Positions 25,109 through 51,250 of a stretch of DNA of 64,000 nt are shown here, one piece after another. The stretch covers positions 105,184-169,183 of IMG/VR virus record IMGVR_UViG_3300032294_003343; one strand, given 5' to 3'. Origin of the DNA: a virus. Both the position numbers and the translations under genes were made by a program. The stretch's first letter is position 1; the number at the start of each line of letters is the position of its first letter. Under the pieces are notes generated by a model that did no database searches, was not told the origin of the DNA, and saw nothing but the letters and a program-made list of their open reading frames with translations.

Positions 25109-26278
25109 ATGAATAAATTTTTCCTACCATTGATGAATGATAATATCGACAAAGAAGATGTAAATTCAGTGATTGAGTTTTTATCTCAAGATAATATTCC
25201 AAAGCTGACTAATGGACCAAAAGTTGTGGAATTTGAAAATGCATGGGGACAATGGTTAGGTACAAAATACAATTTGTTTGTAAATTCAGGTGCTTCTGCT
25301 AATGAATTAACAATGTTAGCTTTAGCTCACATTGTTGGTGAAGGCGAAATTATTGTCCCACCCTTAACTTGGATATCAGACATTTCTTCAGTTCTTTTTG
25401 CTGGTCATAAACTTGTATTTGTTGATGTCAATTTTACTAACTTATCATTTGATATAGATAAACTTAAAGAAGCAATTACACCAAATACAAAAGCCATATT
25501 TTTAACACACGTTTTGGGAATCAATGGCTTAACAGATGAGCTTATTGATATTTGCGAAAAGAATAATATCTTATTAATTGAAGATGTTTGTGAGTCCCAT
25601 GGTACAACCTTCCAAGGCTGCAAGGTTGGTAATTTTGGGTTTGCCAGTAATTTTAGTTTTTATTTTGCTCACCATATGTCAACAATTGAAGGTGGGATGA
25701 TTAGTACAAACAATTGGGAATTTTATCAAGTTTGTCGTGCCCTAAGATCTCATGGGATGACTAGAGAAATGACAAGTGATTCTATGAAAGTTTCTATTGC
25801 AATGGATAACCCTGATTTAAATCCTGATTTTATATTTTTACGTCCAGCTCACAATTTTAGAAGTACTGAAATTAATGCGGTTATAGGTTTATCGCAATTG
25901 CCAAAACTTGATGCAAAAAATCAAGAAAGAATTGATAATTTTGATTTATTTATATCGAATTTGGATTCTGAAAAGTATCATGTTGCTCTAAACACTGAAG
26001 GTAATTGTAATTACGCTTTTATTGTAATTCTAAAAGATGCTGATTTTTCAAAAAGAAATGAATTAGAGAAAAAATTACAAAACAACGGCATAGAATTTAG
26101 AAGAGGATTATCTGGTGGTGGTAATCAAATGAGACAGCCTTTTTTCAAGTCTGTTTACACTGATTTTTCAAATTTTCCAAATATTGAACATATTCATAAT
26201 TATTCATGGTATATCGGAAATTATCCAGGCTTAGAAAAAGAAAAAATTATAAAACTTCTTGAGGTTTTGAATGGCTAA
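25109..26278 (+). CDS. PLP-dependent DegT-fold dehydrase/aminotransferase, ColD-like (389 aa)
   Basis: DegT/DnrJ/EryC1-fold protein of normal length. The segment that carries the PLP-binding Lys in aminotransferases reads FSFYFAHHMSTIEGG: the Lys is replaced by His (H188/H189). That substitution is the hallmark of ColD (GDP-4-keto-6-deoxymannose 3-dehydratase) and of E1-type 3-dehydrases, which bind PLP/PMP without a Schiff base and remove the C3 hydroxyl. Unlike the RfbH homologue at 27860 it lacks the four-cysteine iron-sulphur motif, so ColD-like chemistry fits best. It overlaps the RmlC-like gene by eight bases. Confidence 0.7.
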   Translation: MNKFFLPLMNDNIDKEDVNSVIEFLSQDNIPKLTNGPKVVEFENAWGQWLGTKYNLFVNSGASANELTMLALAHIVGEGEIIVPPLTWISDISSVLFAGHKLVFVDVNFTNLSFDIDKLKEAITPNTKAIFLTHVLGINGLTDELIDICEKNNILLIEDVCESHGTTFQGCKVGNFGFASNFSFYFAHHMSTIEGGMISTNNWEFYQVCRALRSHGMTREMTSDSMKVSIAMDNPDLNPDFIFLRPAHNFRSTEINAVIGLSQLPKLDAKNQERIDNFDLFISNLDSEKYHVALNTEGNCNYAFIVILKDADFSKRNELEKKLQNNGIEFRRGLSGGGNQMRQPFFKSVYTDFSNFPNIEHIHNYSWYIGNYPGLEKEKIIKLLEVLNG

Positions 26279-26780
26279 GGTTGAAGCTTTATCCAATGTT
26301 ATAATCAAACAAGTCGATAGCTTCCATGATCACAGAGGGCAGCTTTTTACTTTATGGGAAAAATCTGACTTTGACTTTTTAAATTTCAACCATGATAAAG
26401 TTGCAATTTCGCACAAAAATGTACTAAGGGGACTTCATACTGATAAATCTTGGAAGCTTATCACTTGCATTCATGGATCAATACAGTTAGTAGTTGCAAA
26501 TATTGATAAAAACAGTCAGGAATATTTAGACCATATAGATATCATCATAAATTCTGATGACAAAATTAAAACTTTTGTTCTTGTTCCACCTGGTTATGTA
26601 AATGGGCATCTCGTACTAAGTGATGAAGCTGTGTTTTATTACAAATGGTGTTACGAAGGTGAATACCCAGACATGAAAGATCAGTTGTCAGTAAATTGGG
26701 CAGATCCAAAGTTAGACATAAATTGGCTTACAGATGACCCAATACTTTCTGACAGAGATAAAAAGACCCGATTATTATGA
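26271..26780 (+). CDS. rfbC-like: dTDP-4-dehydrorhamnose 3,5-epimerase (RmlC)-like protein (169 aa)
   Basis: RmlC-type cupin. Landmarks: HDHRGQLFTLW near residue 20, the catalytic VLRGLH (His about 62) followed by KLITCIHGSI, then VPPGYVNGH and an SVNWADPKLDINW tail typical of the family. RmlC epimerises C3 and C5 of 4-keto-6-deoxy nucleotide sugars. It is made with the ColD-like dehydrase upstream (8-base overlap) and the sugar kinase downstream (ATGA). Together with the RmlB-like gene at 12215 it suggests deoxyhexose synthesis, although RmlA and RmlD are not in the window. Confidence 0.75.
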   Translation: MAKVEALSNVIIKQVDSFHDHRGQLFTLWEKSDFDFLNFNHDKVAISHKNVLRGLHTDKSWKLITCIHGSIQLVVANIDKNSQEYLDHIDIIINSDDKIKTFVLVPPGYVNGHLVLSDEAVFYYKWCYEGEYPDMKDQLSVNWADPKLDINWLTDDPILSDRDKKTRLL

Positions 26781-27547
26781 AAGAACTATATAAAGATATC
26801 AAAATATTAGTAATTGGCGACTCTTGTACTGATATTTTCACCTATGGAAATGTACTAAGACTTGCTCCAGAAGGGCCAGCTCCTGTTTTCAACCCTTTAT
26901 TTACTACAAATAATGGTGGTATGGCATTAAACGTAGCTGCAAATATTTCTGCTATTGGAGCTAATGTCAAGCTAATTACCCAAGATGAAAATATAACTAA
27001 AACTAGATATATAGACCAAAGAACTAATTCACTATTATTGAGGATAGATGAAAATGATACATCATCTAAAATTTCAAAACATATACTCAATAATTTAATA
27101 GATAATGTATATGAAGATGTCAAATATGATGCAATTATTGTAAGTGATTATTGTAAGGGTTTTTTATCAGAAGAAGATATAGAAACTATAGCTACTAGGA
27201 ATTCGAAAGTATTTTTAGATACAAAAAAGATCTTAGGCGAATGGTGCAATGATGTAACATTCATAAAAATTAATCATACTGAATATGATAAGACAAAGCA
27301 TACTATCGATTATTTAGGTTTGTACGGGAAGATGATTATAACAAGATCTGATGAAGGTTGTGAGTATGATCATTCAATTTTTCCAGTTGAAAAAGTAAAT
27401 ATCAAAGATGTTTCCGGCGCAGGAGATACATTTATTTCTGGACTTGTATGTGAATTTATCAGAACAAATAATATTGTTGAGGCGATAAAGTTTGCCCAAG
27501 AATGTGCTACTCAAGTAGTTCAAAAGAAGGGAGTTTGTACTATATGA
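26777..27547 (+). CDS. PfkB-family sugar kinase, HldE/RfaE N-domain-like (256 aa)
   Basis: PfkB carbohydrate kinase. The N-terminal VIGDSCTDIF and RLAPEGPAPVF recall the heptose-7-phosphate kinase domain of HldE/RfaE; the C-terminal VSGAGDTF contains the catalytic Asp and the anion hole of the ribokinase family. It is shorter than typical HldA (about 320 aa), with a compact lid region. There is no cytidylyl/adenylyltransferase domain. It likely phosphorylates a sugar or sugar phosphate feeding the nucleotide-sugar steps. ATGA overlaps join it to both neighbours. Confidence 0.75.
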   Translation: MKELYKDIKILVIGDSCTDIFTYGNVLRLAPEGPAPVFNPLFTTNNGGMALNVAANISAIGANVKLITQDENITKTRYIDQRTNSLLLRIDENDTSSKISKHILNNLIDNVYEDVKYDAIIVSDYCKGFLSEEDIETIATRNSKVFLDTKKILGEWCNDVTFIKINHTEYDKTKHTIDYLGLYGKMIITRSDEGCEYDHSIFPVEKVNIKDVSGAGDTFISGLVCEFIRTNNIVEAIKFAQECATQVVQKKGVCTI

Positions 27548-27834: not shown

Positions 27835-27861
27835 AAAAAAGAGGCTTGTAGCCTCTTTTTT
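27834..27861. terminator. Bidirectional rho-independent terminator
   Basis: A run of A, the inverted repeat GAGGCT (27841-27846) / AGCCTC (27850-27855) with a TGT loop, and a run of T. It ends the rightward arm and overlaps the stop of the convergent dehydrase gene, so it can serve both strands. Confidence 0.85.
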
Positions 27862-29170
27862 ATTTGTCAAAAAAACTATCTAGAACTTCACCTATATAAT
27901 CAATTTGTTCTTCTGTTATAACTGGAGACGTTCCTAAAAAGAAAGTATCAGTGGTGACTTTTTTAGCAACTGGAAAGTCATTAAGATCCATATCGGCAAC
28001 TAAATGACTATAAGCTGGTTGCATCAAAATGTTTCCAGCAAAATATGGTCTAGTTTGAATTTTTTTAGATTCTAAATACTGACAAATATCACTTCTCTTA
28101 AAAGGTGCGTTATCTTTGACAGTTATTGGGAATGCAAACCAATTTACATCTGCATTCTTTTGTGCTACTGGAAGAACAAAATATTCTTCATACTTAGAAA
28201 ACTTTTCTGTTAATAATTTGTGATTTCTTTGACGTAAATTTTTAATTTCAGCAAGTTTATCAATTTGAGCTAACAACATACTGGCTTGAACTTCGATTGG
28301 TTTTAAGTTATAACCAATTTCTTCATAGACATATTTATGGTCAAATACTTCTCCTGGCATACTAGGTAGCCATTCTGAAAATCTTTGATTGCAAGCTCCA
28401 CATTCTGTAATATTTTGTTTACCAATACAAAAACATCCACGACCCCAATCACGAATAGAACGGATCACTCTTTCTAAATTATCATCATTACAAACAACTA
28501 ACCCGCCTTCTCCACAAGTAATATGATGAGCAGGATAGAAAGAACAAGAAGCCATAGTGCCGAAGCTGCCCAAAGGATTACCGTCGAATGATGAACCTAA
28601 AGCATCACAACAATCCTCAAGTAATATTAATCCATAATGATCAATAATATCTAATAATCTGTACATGTCAGGAGGATTTCCTAACACATGAGCAAATGTT
28701 ATGATTTTTATTTCTGGATCTGCCTGTAAAGTAGCTTCTACATCATCTAAATTTAAGTTTAAACCATCTAAAGAAATATCTACAAAAACAGGCTTGAAAC
28801 CACATTGAAAAATCGGGTTTATAGTAGTTGGAAAACCAGCAATAGGAGTAAGTACTTTAGTTCCTTCAGGTAAATTAAGATATCTTTTTGACTTCAAAGC
28901 TGACATCATGAGAAGATTTGAGCTACTACCTGAGTTAGTCAATAAAGCGTGGTTTTTACCGAATAGAGAGGCTAATTTTCTCTCTGCTTTATATGCTTCA
29001 GCTCCTAAAACTAACCAACCATCTAACAACGTAGAGACTGATCTAACAATTTCAGTATGATCAAAATAAGGACCAGCATAATGAACATGATCTTTGCCAG
29101 GTCTCCATTTTTTATTTGGTTCGCTTTTGATATAATCTTCAACTATTTTGAGCAATTCTTCTTTAGTCAT
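27860..29170 (-). CDS. rfbH: CDP-4-keto-6-deoxy-D-glucose 3-dehydrase (RfbH/DdhC/AscC-like, 436 aa)
   Basis: DegT-fold PMP-dependent dehydrase. The cofactor region reads SFYPAHHITCGEGG with His (about 214-215) in place of the aminotransferase Lys, exactly the E1 signature. The RDWGRGCFC and ECGACNQRF segments give the cysteines of the [2Fe-2S] cluster specific to RfbH/E1. Length (436) equals the known family. It removes the C3 hydroxyl on the way to CDP-3,6-dideoxyhexoses; its reductase partner (DdhD/E3) is not in the window, so a host or distant phage gene must supply electrons. It stands alone on the minus strand between two terminators, at the right border of the cassette. Confidence 0.85.
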   Translation of the reverse strand: MTKEELLKIVEDYIKSEPNKKWRPGKDHVHYAGPYFDHTEIVRSVSTLLDGWLVLGAEAYKAERKLASLFGKNHALLTNSGSSSNLLMMSALKSKRYLNLPEGTKVLTPIAGFPTTINPIFQCGFKPVFVDISLDGLNLNLDDVEATLQADPEIKIITFAHVLGNPPDMYRLLDIIDHYGLILLEDCCDALGSSFDGNPLGSFGTMASCSFYPAHHITCGEGGLVVCNDDNLERVIRSIRDWGRGCFCIGKQNITECGACNQRFSEWLPSMPGEVFDHKYVYEEIGYNLKPIEVQASMLLAQIDKLAEIKNLRQRNHKLLTEKFSKYEEYFVLPVAQKNADVNWFAFPITVKDNAPFKRSDICQYLESKKIQTRPYFAGNILMQPAYSHLVADMDLNDFPVAKKVTTDTFFLGTSPVITEEQIDYIGEVLDSFFDK

Positions 29171-36914: not shown

Positions 36915-39287
36915 TTACAAATATTCCGAATTACCCTCACCCATACCTGTTCGTTTTTTGATTGCTTTGATCAAAACATTTAGACAATCTTGAGGATGAT
37001 CATTGATTTCTTTGTCTGTAAATCTAACAATAATCCATCCATTTGCAGCTAATTCTGAATCTCTTCGTTTATCTTTTGCAATTTTATCTGGATTGTTATG
37101 CCAAATTTCTCCATCTGCTTCAATACCAATTTTAAGATTTGGAATTGCAGCATCTAATTGATAATCCATTGTAGGCCCAGCAGAATATTGAGCATAAAGA
37201 GGAAATGGCATATTTAATGACATTGTTAAACCATATAGTTTCTTCTCTAAACTAGTAAACATTTTTGGTTGTTGGGAAACATCTATTTTCTTTTTAGCAT
37301 ATCTTTTGATAGATTCATTCTCATTTGATGCAAATTGATATATCTCTTCCAAAGCATAATTATTCAATGGATGAGAATTATCTCCTCCACAGAGAGGGGT
37401 TTGCAATGATCCAAACAAACCATCATATTCACTTGGGAGTGGCCCAAGAGATCCTCTTCCTGTTACTGGGGTCAAAGACATCAAGAAGCCTTCATGAGCA
37501 GCAGACTTTATTCTTTTACTTGCAGTTCTGACACCTGAATTTTTAGCATTAATTCTTTCATCATAAATTTCGTTTATTAAATTACTAGCTAATTTGTAAT
37601 TTTTTGTCATAACTGAAGCTGTTGGAGCTGGTGCACCACCGGGTGCAGGAGCTGCAGGAGGAGCTCCAACAGGAGGCGGAGGAGCCCCACCAACTGCTAA
37701 ATCTGCTGGGGGAGGAGCTCCCATACCACCAGATGCATCTGGTGCTCCAGCACCAAATCCCTGCCCTGTCACTCCTCCACTTTGAAAACTCAATGAAATA
37801 TTGGGAGTTCCAAATGATTGATCATTGACAAAGTTTGCTCCCTGTTCAAATCTCAATCTTTCAATTTCTTGATCAGAATCTAATCCAAATGCTTCAATGA
37901 GAGAAACATTTGAAATCACACCGTTTTGGTTTGCAGTTACAAGCATTTGAAGCTTGCCAGTATCATCACGTAATTGAAGATCATCAAATTTGATTTTAGG
38001 ATAAACTAATTCATCCTGACCTCTTTCGCCTTCAATTACAAAACCATTCCATTTTGCAACTGGCATGAAAACATTTTGTTCAATCCAGTGTGCAACTTCT
38101 CTTCTAAAAGTCTCTAATCTTTGAGCCATTGCAAGAAGACCAACTTGAGCATTACCATAAGTTGGACCCTCGCCATTCAATAGAGCTTTATTGAGCATGA
38201 CACCATCTAAAATTTCTTGTTCAATTAATTCAAATTCACCAGTAAGAGGATGAATTTTGCCCGTAGCTCCGTACCATTCAAGATCAAAATTATGGTGAGT
38301 TACAAGAGTTAAGTTTGGATCATTAGCAATAGAAGCTAACTCATCTTGAACATTGTCAATATCTTCTTGTGATGCTGGTCTTGTATCACTACCAATTTTT
38401 ACAACCTTAATAGGCAAAATAAGACGTTCAGCAATCATATATTGAGCTTGACGTAATTTATCCTTGTAAGTCAAGATTGGAAACAACGGTCTGATCATGG
38501 AAATTCCATAATCTTCCCAAGGGTTTGAGCCATACTTAAAATGATGAATAGAAATAGGATTAAGCTTGATAGGATTTCCTTGCATAATCATCTTTTTTAT
38601 ATCATCAGGAATTTTGTCATAGACTTCCTTAGGATGTCTTTCATTTACAATTCTAATTTCTTCTGCAGATGGTCTGTAAGCATAACTACCTGGTTGATCA
38701 ATCATGCCTGGACTTTTAATTACAGAGTCTGGATTTAAAATCGAAATTGATTTCCAGGTAGCTCCATCATGTTCACACTCTTTATTTTTGTCATCATCCC
38801 AATTTGAACCGTGGCAGTGAGGACAATCAAGAGAAAGCAAAACAAATGAATCACCTAACAAGTGATATGTTTTGGAAATTTCAGGAAGCCATTTTTGAAA
38901 ATTGAGAGATTCTACTAACTTTTCAAAATAGTCTTTCACGTAAGAAGAAGAACATTCTAGCTTCCAGCCAGAAAATGGATAGTTGGTGTAAAAATTGACA
39001 GCTGCAGCAATTTTTGGTTCGTTATTTCTCCACCAGTTAGCCCAAAGATAAACTTCACGACGAGCATTTGGGATTTGAAAAGATGATGGAGTTAAAAAAG
39101 GCGAATAGAAATTTGGAGATGTAGTTACTGTGTTTACACTAGCAGTTCTTGTAACACTGGGTCCTAAACCTAGACCAATTCTACTGCTTGCATAATTTCT
39201 ATCTACAGTTGATGAAGTTGTGGGTGCTCCTGATACTTGTGTTGCTGCTGTTCTGATAGCAGAAGCCAATGATGTTCTATTTGCCAT
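36915..39287 (-). CDS. Portal protein with C-terminal DUF559/Vsr-like nuclease domain (790 aa)
   Basis: The first 560 residues read as a phage portal: conserved-looking WANWWRNNEPKIAAAVNFY helix, a DSFVLL strand, stem/crown region and clip-like Gly/Pro stretch. A zinc-type CPHCH is inserted near residue 155. A Pro/Ala/Gly-rich linker (about 535-580) leads to an extra C-terminal region whose end (707-775) fits the DUF559/Vsr family of PD-(D/E)xK nucleases: Asp712, the E-A-D motif Glu723-Asp725, then a KDKRRDSEL helix and GWIIVRFTDKEI. An MWYK-tagged gene precedes it on the minus strand. TATAAT lies seven bases before the ATG. The nuclease fusion is unusual for a portal. Confidence 0.75.
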   Translation of the reverse strand: MANRTSLASAIRTAATQVSGAPTTSSTVDRNYASSRIGLGLGPSVTRTASVNTVTTSPNFYSPFLTPSSFQIPNARREVYLWANWWRNNEPKIAAAVNFYTNYPFSGWKLECSSSYVKDYFEKLVESLNFQKWLPEISKTYHLLGDSFVLLSLDCPHCHGSNWDDDKNKECEHDGATWKSISILNPDSVIKSPGMIDQPGSYAYRPSAEEIRIVNERHPKEVYDKIPDDIKKMIMQGNPIKLNPISIHHFKYGSNPWEDYGISMIRPLFPILTYKDKLRQAQYMIAERLILPIKVVKIGSDTRPASQEDIDNVQDELASIANDPNLTLVTHHNFDLEWYGATGKIHPLTGEFELIEQEILDGVMLNKALLNGEGPTYGNAQVGLLAMAQRLETFRREVAHWIEQNVFMPVAKWNGFVIEGERGQDELVYPKIKFDDLQLRDDTGKLQMLVTANQNGVISNVSLIEAFGLDSDQEIERLRFEQGANFVNDQSFGTPNISLSFQSGGVTGQGFGAGAPDASGGMGAPPPADLAVGGAPPPPVGAPPAAPAPGGAPAPTASVMTKNYKLASNLINEIYDERINAKNSGVRTASKRIKSAAHEGFLMSLTPVTGRGSLGPLPSEYDGLFGSLQTPLCGGDNSHPLNNYALEEIYQFASNENESIKRYAKKKIDVSQQPKMFTSLEKKLYGLTMSLNMPFPLYAQYSAGPTMDYQLDAAIPNLKIGIEADGEIWHNNPDKIAKDKRRDSELAANGWIIVRFTDKEINDHPQDCLNVLIKAIKKRTGMGEGNSEYL

Positions 39288-44564: not shown

Positions 44565-44867
44565 TTATGTTTTTTTACTGAAAATTACTTTCTTGCCCTT
44601 CAAAAACAATTTATCTCCAACACCGATGCCTAATTTTTTGAACAATCCTTTCTTTGCTTCTACAACAAATACAACATTGTTCGAATCTGGAGATACAGAT
44701 TTAGGGTCGTCTGCTTCCATATCCTTAATATCCACAATCTTATAATTTTTATCTAAAAAAGCTAAAGATAATGGAAAAGAAACATTCTTATTCCAAAATG
44801 AATAGCAATCAGGATAATCAAAAGTAAAAAAAACTACTTCGTAATCATCTAAAGGCTCAGCATTCAT
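44565..44867 (-). CDS. DUF192-family domain, only ATG internal to the domain (100 aa)
   Basis: The sequence from ATG 44867 to the stop matches the C-terminal two thirds of DUF192 (FWNKNVSFPLSLAFLDKNY, then a GVGDKLFL end). The domain's expected N-terminal strand and GLM motif (VRFVADSDKLRTKGLM) are encoded just upstream in the same frame, back to a TGA at 44946-44948, with no ATG, GTG or TTG in between. That TGA is the stop of the upstream 163-residue gene. So the domain is complete only if the TGA is read through. Otherwise this is a truncated or broken gene. DUF192 function is unknown; several members are secreted. Confidence 0.6.
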   Translation of the reverse strand: MNAEPLDDYEVVFFTFDYPDCYSFWNKNVSFPLSLAFLDKNYKIVDIKDMEADDPKSVSPDSNNVVFVVEAKKGLFKKLGIGVGDKLFLKGKKVIFSKKT

Positions 44868-44948
44868 TAAGCCTTTAGTGCGTAATTTATCTGAATCTGC
44901 TACAAATCTGACATCGAATTCATCACGGAATTCTTTACTAGCGAGTCA
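44868..44948 (-). other. In-frame TGA and open frame linking two genes
   Basis: The 163-codon gene ends in ...TCT TGA, and the following 26 codons (LASKEFRDEF...) have no stop and continue in the same frame into ATG 44867, supplying the missing start of the DUF192 domain. TGA followed by C is a leaky context. TGA serves as a true stop elsewhere in this window (many ATGA overlaps), so general recoding is excluded. Readthrough, a recent mutation or a sequencing error could each explain it. Confidence 0.7.
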
Positions 44949-45437
44949 AGAACCAACTTTCTTAAATTTATTTGTAGATGCTTTTACGCTTCTAGCTTCT
45001 TCAAGATCAAATCTATCTTTGGTTCTTTGCTTTCTAAATTCATTAACATTATCAGTGCTCAAATAATGGTCACGTAATGCTAATTTTGCTCTTTCAGTAA
45101 GTTCTACAGATCTTCCATATCCAGTGAGTAATCCTGCTGTTTTAAGAGCTAAAAGATCATTATCAGAAATTTCTGTTGGTACACCACAAATTTTGCTGTC
45201 TTTATGTAAAGCAACATAGCTAGCTGCAGTAACTAAAGCATCGGTGTTAGCATCAATTGACTTGAGCATACCAAGATATTTTTCGCTTAATTTAGCTGCT
45301 TCAATTTTCTTTGGAGCTTGTGAAACACCAAGAAGTTGAATTTGGATATCTGAAAGTCCAAGACCTTCCATTGATGGTCCGTCAAATAATTCTGCGTGTA
45401 AATCTAAAGAATGAACTGGTTTAATTGGTATAGGCAT
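44946..45437 (-). CDS. Head-module hypothetical protein, possible readthrough donor (163 aa)
   Basis: Not recognised. A helical protein beginning with a Pro-rich strand (MPIPIKPV), carrying a HTH-like LLALKTAGLLTGYGRSVELTERAKLAL segment (about 95-120) and a basic C-terminus. It ends at TGA 44946-44948, behind which a DUF192 domain continues in frame. If read through, the product is 291 residues including the translated stop. It has an AGGA ribosome site. Function unknown; inferred to be a virion or packaging-associated protein by context. Confidence 0.5.
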   Translation of the reverse strand: MPIPIKPVHSLDLHAELFDGPSMEGLGLSDIQIQLLGVSQAPKKIEAAKLSEKYLGMLKSIDANTDALVTAASYVALHKDSKICGVPTEISDNDLLALKTAGLLTGYGRSVELTERAKLALRDHYLSTDNVNEFRKQRTKDRFDLEEARSVKASTNKFKKVGS

Positions 45438-45448
45438 AATTTAATTCC

Positions 45449-45907
45449 TTATCTGTATGGTATTCTGTTTTTCCAAGCATTTCCTTCATCAACATTTTTC
45501 TCATATGTTTCTTCCCAGGAAAATTTATCGCACAAATCCTCACCACTATGAATTGCCATAGATGGACTAGAAGCTGGGTTGCCCGGATCGACGTAAGCTG
45601 GTCCAGGTACATTGTCAGGACCATGTAATTGTCCTTCAATATTTTGACCATCGGCTTCACCACCTAAGTCTCTGTATTCTGGAACTCTTTTCCTCGGGTT
45701 AATTTTTTGACGCCAGAAATCGTTTTGTTTAGTTTCTTCTTCTATTTCTTCATAAGGAACTAAAGATACGTTTGGTGATTGGGTGACAGATTGTTGAGGA
45801 TAATATTGAGCAATTTTTTCAAACAAAATGTCAGCCTTTGAATAATGCCCAGATTTATCTAATCTTGAGCAAACTTTGATTATTGTTTGAATTGATTTTG
45901 CATTCAT
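45449..45907 (-). CDS. Head-module hypothetical protein with LDxxGxYxxAD motif (152 aa)
   Basis: Not recognised. The N-terminal helix contains RLDKSGHYSKADILFEK; the same pattern (LDxxGxYxxAD) occurs at the start of the protein at 57126. The remainder is Pro/Asn/Gly-rich and probably extended. The 5' side carries a 15-base sequence (TTAATAAGAACAAAT on the minus strand) also found before the neighbouring gene at 46934. No ribosome-binding site is evident. Head or packaging accessory role by context. Confidence 0.45.
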   Translation of the reverse strand: MNAKSIQTIIKVCSRLDKSGHYSKADILFEKIAQYYPQQSVTQSPNVSLVPYEEIEEETKQNDFWRQKINPRKRVPEYRDLGGEADGQNIEGQLHGPDNVPGPAYVDPGNPASSPSMAIHSGEDLCDKFSWEETYEKNVDEGNAWKNRIPYR

Positions 45908-50683: not shown

Positions 50684-51250
50684 TTAATCAAAAAGGAAAT
50701 CTTTTCCCAATATATTTTTCATTTGTTCAAGAGCTTTAGATAATCTTTTTGAAAATGCACCTTGGGTTATTCCAAGCTTTTCAGATGCTTCTTTCTGATC
50801 TAATTGCTCAAAGAAATAAACTTGAATCACTTCTTTGCTCTTATCATTTAATTTTTCAAATGCTTGATGGATACAAATTACATTGTCAATCTTGTTAAAT
50901 GGATCATCATATTGTTCAGTAAATTCAACCTCTTCAACTGATTCTTCTTTTGGAAAATACTTATCAGAAATATATCTAAATAAATTAATATCAATTCTTG
51001 TTGATAAAAAATAAGAAAAATAAGAAAGTTTAGGATCGTATTGGTCTATTAGCTTGATAAAAACAAATAGAGTGTCGCCCAAAATATCTTCTCTGTAAGG
51101 AGACAGTCTTGGTTCTTTATAGAGAATTCTTTTTACCGATGAAATAAATAAAGGTTTATAAAATTCATAAAGCTCATATAAAGCCGAATCATCACCAGCT
51201 TTGTATTTAAATAATAACTTATTGATTTCGTCGTAGTTCTGATCGGCCAT
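50684..51250 (-). CDS. ECF-type RNA polymerase sigma factor (188 aa)
   Basis: Small sigma-70 family protein. Region 2 lies in residues 25-90 (FISSVKRILYKEPRL, then FSYFLSTRI) and region 4 in 130-180, with a helix-turn-helix QKEASEKLGITQGAFSKRLSKAL. It lacks regions 1 and 3, typical of ECF sigma factors. It would redirect host RNA polymerase to phage promoters. TATAAT six bases before the ATG and no ribosome site suggest a leaderless mRNA. It is followed by a terminator, so it may be transcribed from that promoter alone or from the delta-clamp operon upstream (7-base gap). Confidence 0.8.
   Translation of the reverse strand: MADQNYDEINKLLFKYKAGDDSALYELYEFYKPLFISSVKRILYKEPRLSPYREDILGDTLFVFIKLIDQYDPKLSYFSYFLSTRIDINLFRYISDKYFPKEESVEEVEFTEQYDDPFNKIDNVICIHQAFEKLNDKSKEVIQVYFFEQLDQKEASEKLGITQGAFSKRLSKALEQMKNILGKDFLFD

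Follow-up and report, generated by a model that had tools for sequence, protein, structure and literature searches.

Stop-codon readthrough in phages has its textbook example in the RNA phage Q-beta; in E. coli, UGA is usually misread by the tryptophan tRNA. Readthrough signals of the form UGA-CUA(G) occur in eukaryotic and viral genes, and some of the viral sites add 3′ RNA structure. In Q-beta, as described in PMC8067240, a host tRNA misreads the UGA of the coat gene as tryptophan about 1 time in 15; the same review calls the readthrough mechanism unique to Q-beta's type of phage. The UGA_CUAG readthrough motif is described in PMC9841425, and UGA followed by C is reported to give inefficient termination in bacteria, with tRNA-Trp misreading UGA (PMC5289835). 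According to PMC7918605, prokaryotic genes show widespread in-frame stops, which are over-represented in mobile elements, an excess put down in part to pseudogenes. For bacterial selenocysteine insertion, the rule given in PMC13188914 is a stem-loop (SECIS) 16-37 nt after the UGA with a small apical loop carrying an early G; nearly all selenoproteins, according to the same source, have Cys homologues. The open-access texts consulted contained no account of a tailed phage with conserved programmed stop-codon readthrough, for which priority is uncertain, nor of a DUF192 domain reached by recoding.

The window analyzed here makes up the final 64 kb of a linear IMG/VR virus record of 169 kb, and contains a gene (gene A) whose terminal UGA is followed in the same frame by a DUF192 domain. 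Its features are as follows.

44946..45437, minus strand: gene A, an open reading frame of 163 codons (163 aa) whose 3′ end is the putatively recoded TGA; a winged-helix segment is likely.
45446..45450, minus strand: AAGGA, a Shine-Dalgarno-like motif for gene A, read from the sequence.
44946..44948, minus strand: the putatively recoded UGA stop codon, TGA in 64 of 66 distinct junctions and in 53 of 53 rows of the codon alignment.
44943..44945, minus strand: the CTC codon completing the UGA-CUN context; among 64 junctions it is CTC in 40, CTG in 23 and CTA in 1.
44565..44945, minus strand: the in-frame extension, 126 codons plus TAA, reachable solely by readthrough of the TGA and under purifying selection.
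44607..44903, minus strand: match to DUF192 (PF02643), Pfam E 5.2e-21, with PDB relatives 3m7a and 3pjy.
44865..44867, minus strand: the sole ATG of the extension, the Met of a GLM motif, inside the domain and unlikely as a start.

The arrangement resembles that of the Q-beta A1 protein in having one start codon, a UGA at the gene end and, as we propose, a minor product with a C-terminal domain. It differs in that Q-beta is an RNA phage whose base protein is its coat protein, and the proteins of the two phages are unrelated; the window comes from a double-stranded DNA tailed phage, the base protein is a head-operon protein, and the UGA stands in a UGA-CUN context with a stem-loop. With the eukaryotic and viral UGA-CUA(G) signals the site shares a UGA with CU directly after it, in a leucine codon; unlike them, it would be met by a bacterial ribosome and release factor 2, its third base is C or G and rarely A, and no G is required after it.

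The initial annotation had described a 163-codon gene closed by TGA, with the same frame open beyond it and encoding a complete DUF192 domain, and our analysis bore this out. The frame is open from 44945 to 44568 and ends at the TAA at 44567-44565; the Pfam match covers extension residues 15-113 at 75 bits (cut-off 27) and spans profile positions 5-94 of 96. That the only ATG (44867-44865) lies inside the domain was likewise correct: because the match runs from extension residue 15 to 113, its residues 1-12, including the first strand of the domain, precede this ATG. An AlphaFold model of the read-through protein agrees in placing the predicted first strand at residues 173-180, before the GLM Met (residue 191). 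In this model the DUF192 half is of moderate to good confidence (10-residue blocks of 69-88), and the junction, residues 161-167, scores below 50 and is predicted to be a disordered linker. The extension is related by sequence and by fold to the DUF192/COG1430 proteins 3m7a and 3pjy; these two structures belong to cellular proteins whose function is unknown, whereas the domain in the window would be reached by recoding only. Foldseek also found the DUF192 fold within several longer phage proteins, indicating that tethered copies exist in other settings as well. In the rest of the record TGA acts as an ordinary stop, as had been claimed: it ends 19 of the 124 open reading frames that reach 100 aa or more across the 169 kb. 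Among these 124, gene A is the sole one whose TGA is followed by C and the sole one with a long same-frame extension beyond its TGA, and a second comparable site was not found in the rest of the record.

To determine how the junction behaves in relatives, we searched 2.9 million viral contigs using as queries gene A, the extension, and alignments of each. Relatives were numerous, on contigs of up to 358 kb, and gene A homologues were present in more than 90 viral contigs. Each of the 66 distinct junction sequences obtained was read. Sixty-four had TGA-CTN at the end of gene A, most of them from other metagenomes and with identities to the window's full-length read-through protein going down to about 53%; the other two, L108 and L338, are outgroups with a different arrangement. 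No sense codon occurred at the junction in any of the 66, the outcome of the check that the initial annotation had itself named for its proposal of programmed readthrough, which is thereby supported. Across 53 full-length proteins placed on a maximum-likelihood tree, the wobble base of the leucine codon had changed at least 4 times, and the TGA and the CT never. Leucine codons in the window's phage are TTA (40%), CTT (27%), TTG (20%), CTA (6%), CTC (4%) and CTG (3%), so that CTC and CTG together make up only 7%, yet these are the codons kept after the TGA; therefore selection acts on the nucleotides and not on leucine alone. The residue before the TGA is variable (S, T, G, I, K or V, from the codons TCT, TCA, GGC, ACT, AAA, ATA or GTA), with indels directly beside the TGA.

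The extension has the properties of coding sequence from its first codons. In the frame of gene A, pN/pS was 0.37 for the stretch from the TGA to the GLM Met, 0.24 for gene A and 0.32 after the Met. The stretch from the TGA to the Met measures 23-29 codons, and in the codon alignment its indels are of whole codons only. No conserved start precedes the GLM Met; an in-frame ATG was present in 5 of the 64 junctions, and the TTG codons found between the TGA and the Met mostly correspond to the Leu of GLM adjoining it. Gene A is preceded by a Shine-Dalgarno-like motif, but such a motif stood before the Met in no more than 11 of the 64. The locus thus displays what is looked for at a readthrough site: the same stop at the same place in divergent relatives, an extension that is coding in the same frame without a start of its own, and a leaky context, UGA-CUN, accompanied by a candidate stimulatory stem-loop.

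The RNA downstream of the UGA contains one conserved stem-loop, SL1, and possibly a second, SL2.

44916..44933, minus strand: SL1, a 6-bp stem GAAUUC/GAAUUC with loop CGUGAU, starting about 12 nt after the UGA.
44908..44941, minus strand: SL1 plus an outer 4-bp helix (92% of cells paired); one of the outer pairs does not form in the window's copy.
44849..44878, minus strand: possible SL2 around the internal ATG (AAAGG..CCUUU), weakly supported, the lowest folding window.

In the clade whose TGA is followed by FRDEF, AATTCCGTGATGAATT was identical in 16 diverse sequences. In 16 relatives every cell of the inner helix of SL1 was paired (100%), and at one pair both partners had changed; for both helices, 97% of cells were paired, compared with 8-51% in slid controls. 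The pair flanking these letters, the first of the stem, is compensatory, being G-C in 21 and A-U in 13 of 34 sequences, without exception, and the 34 include the deep lineages L162, L319 and L068. Two rare codons of SL1 were invariant in the same 34, TTC for Phe (26% usage) and CGT for Arg (12% usage). As CGT was retained in 34 of 34 at 12% usage, we concluded that the letters of the SL1 loop are themselves selected. Other clades have, by inspection, a hairpin at about the same position made of other letters, such as GAACCU..GAGUUC in L051 and GACAAU..GAUGUC in L067. In 16 representatives, windows of 36 nt that began 2 codons past the UGA gave a mean folding z of −1.28, relative to a background of −0.03 (sd 0.29) over 24 other windows; the 36-nt size was chosen once the first hairpin had already been seen, and longer windows gave weaker values. 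When the scan was made finer (131 windows), the SL1 window was the second lowest and the lowest lay at +22 codons, at SL2. The SL1 signal emerged in the 36-nt windows and in the gap-free clade alignment; with RNAalifold on the gapped alignment nothing was detected near the junction, 60-nt windows gave weak signals only, and Rfam gave no match above the gathering score. Covariation in SL2 was no better than in shuffled sequences, and the conserved KG..PL residues may account for most of its pairing.

That the UGA is decoded in frame appears close to certain from this pattern of conservation, and the best explanation, which we consider probable, is programmed UGA readthrough yielding products of 163 and 290 aa. 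Most ribosomes would terminate at the UGA and release the 163-aa gene A protein; a minority would insert an amino acid there, stay in frame and complete a 290-aa fusion of gene A to DUF192. The decoder is most likely a near-cognate host tRNA, a proposal we make because no suppressor tRNA reading UGA was found in the window's record or in those of its relatives that carry tRNA genes. Such genes number 3 to 9 each in L043 (358 kb), L156 (316 kb), L024 and L029, and the window's 169 kb record has none. A phage-encoded release factor was not found, and a search of genome contigs for relatives that might identify the host found none. The level of readthrough would be set by the weak UGA-C context, in its UGA-CUN form, together with the stem-loop about 12 nt downstream, which would sit near the mRNA entry of the ribosome and be well placed to slow it. 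The most likely benefit would be that a low, constant fraction of the gene A copies carries a tethered DUF192 domain and is made alongside the head proteins; the fusion may be incorporated into the virion.

A different decoding of the same UGA, less likely but a serious rival, is that it is read as selenocysteine, with SL1 as a bacterial SECIS bound by host SelB and with the fusion being a phage selenoprotein or the insertion serving as a switch. The inserted residue may be selenocysteine because the apical loops of SL1 fit the bacterial SECIS rule, and the locus shares with bacterial selenoprotein genes an in-frame UGA, a stem-loop 16-37 nt downstream and an early G in a small apical loop. 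In all 16 representatives a hairpin lay 17-28 nt downstream of the UGA and had G in the first two positions of its loop, where synonymous shuffles gave an expectation of 57%; the loop contained GU in 13 of 16 (19% expected from shuffles), and an AGUU apex arose from different codons in 6 of 16 (4.5% expected from shuffles). The 16 are not independent, however, as 7 have one common hairpin. The invariant CGT of the loop and the fact that the UGA was never swapped for UAG or UAA also agree with selenocysteine, whereas the conserved CUN forms no part of the SECIS rule. Against it, too, a Cys codon occupied the UGA position in 0 of 64 distinct junctions, so that the site lacks the Cys homologues usual for selenoproteins; the flanking residues are variable, with indels beside the UGA, instead of forming a conserved redox flank; and the site lies at the ancestral gene end, in what the model predicts to be a disordered linker. 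A search for tRNA-Sec in 12 phage records returned one match over the cut-off, which coincided with a tRNA-Ser (anticodon tga), and the two phage thioredoxin genes found had no in-frame TGA; no glutaredoxin was found. We consider it unlikely that a tailed-phage gene here borrows the host selenocysteine machinery, using SL1 with its AGUU or CGU loop as SECIS and placing Sec at the old gene end to fuse DUF192 to a head-operon protein.

It is improbable that ribosomes terminate at the UGA and then reinitiate, whether at ATG 44867 or at a non-standard start immediately downstream of the stop, to make a free, truncated DUF192 protein. The gene pair of L338 is coupled by a TAATG overlap and the internal Met is invariant (53 of 53 codon-aligned rows), as reinitiation would have it, but ATG 44867 lies downstream of the first strand of the domain, the codons leading up to it are under purifying selection in the frame of gene A, and the codon after the UGA is mostly CTC, which is not a start, with neither a conserved start nor a conserved Shine-Dalgarno motif nearby. 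Stop hopping, in which the ribosome jumps the UGA in frame and inserts no amino acid, would leave the same sequence pattern as readthrough and was shown in E. coli with synthetic constructs (PMC5009743); as no matching codons are conserved on either side of the UGA and PMC5009743 knows of no natural case, we regard it as very improbable. Least credible, to the point of being negligible, is that the TGA arose from faulty sequencing or from a recent nonsense mutation interrupting a fused gene, or that it has a changed meaning in this phage. A lone in-frame TGA in one metagenome contig would look the same, but this one recurs in 64 distinct sequences, purifying selection acts both before and after it, and of the 19 long open reading frames ended by TGA none but gene A has a long same-frame extension. 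A base-calling error is excluded because 64 distinct relatives, mostly from other metagenomes, have TGA at this position. The same 64 conserved junctions rule out a pseudogene, and reassignment of TGA in an alternative code was rejected on the 19 of 124 reading frames that stop at TGA and the lack, in the records searched, of a tRNA reading UGA. A +1 frameshift of the release factor 2 type was rejected as well: the prfB site, CUU UGA C, likewise uses a weak UGA-C terminator in recoding, but in the window and its relatives the codon before the UGA is never CUU, and the extension continues in frame 0, not +1.

Readthrough of the UGA thus being the preferred reading, the two outgroups bear on how such a fusion may have arisen. 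In L338 (3270-4330) the TAA of a 239-aa gene A homologue overlaps the ATG of a free DUF192 gene (TAATG), a classical coupling; in L108 (4690-6360) gene A is followed by a 265-aa gene without known family and then by DUF192 with its own ATG. The initial annotation had held that relatives with the domain on a separate gene with its own start would tell against readthrough. Such relatives do exist, in these two cases, and that much counts against the proposal; both lie outside the set of sequences with the readthrough arrangement. As DUF192 is a separate gene in L108 and L338, it can be made as a free protein, and with outgroups having separate or overlapping genes, the family shows a route from a gene pair to a recoding fusion. 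The recurring neighborhood together with the recoding fusion suggests, by the usual reasoning from gene fusions, that the gene A and DUF192 proteins act together. The site would represent a deeply conserved UGA recoding site in large, uncultured double-stranded DNA tailed phages with a defined context, UGA-CUC/CUG plus a hairpin. Automatic annotation misses the true start of the DUF192 domain here and may miss further such cases.

The identity of gene A itself was sought in Pfam, PHROGs and PDB and with Foldseek, where the DUF192 half gave the sole confident match; gene A matched no known structural family, and among named phages (INPHARED) it had no relative, the only relatives there being distant terminases. 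A winged-helix segment in gene A is likely, though weakly supported: the homologue in L338 gave a weak match to HTH_45 in Pfam (E 0.0023), below the cut-off. The region upstream of gene A in relatives contains AGGA or AGGAG motifs, similar to the AAGGA of the window. Its neighbors are those of the head and packaging operon of a tailed phage (terminase, portal, maturation protease and major head protein), in agreement with the location originally assigned to it. The portal protein (790 aa, window 36915-39287) carries at its C terminus, at residues 706-776, a DUF559/MTES_1575 restriction-endonuclease-like domain (Pfam), which is unusual in a portal. Upstream of the terminase, and oriented like the head operon, is a gene for an RNA polymerase sigma factor (window 50684-51250, PHROG E 3e-15), and the regions 25109-27547 and 27860-29170 of the window, adjoining the major head protein, hold genes that were judged by eye to be nucleotide-sugar/aminotransferase-like and sugar-kinase-like.
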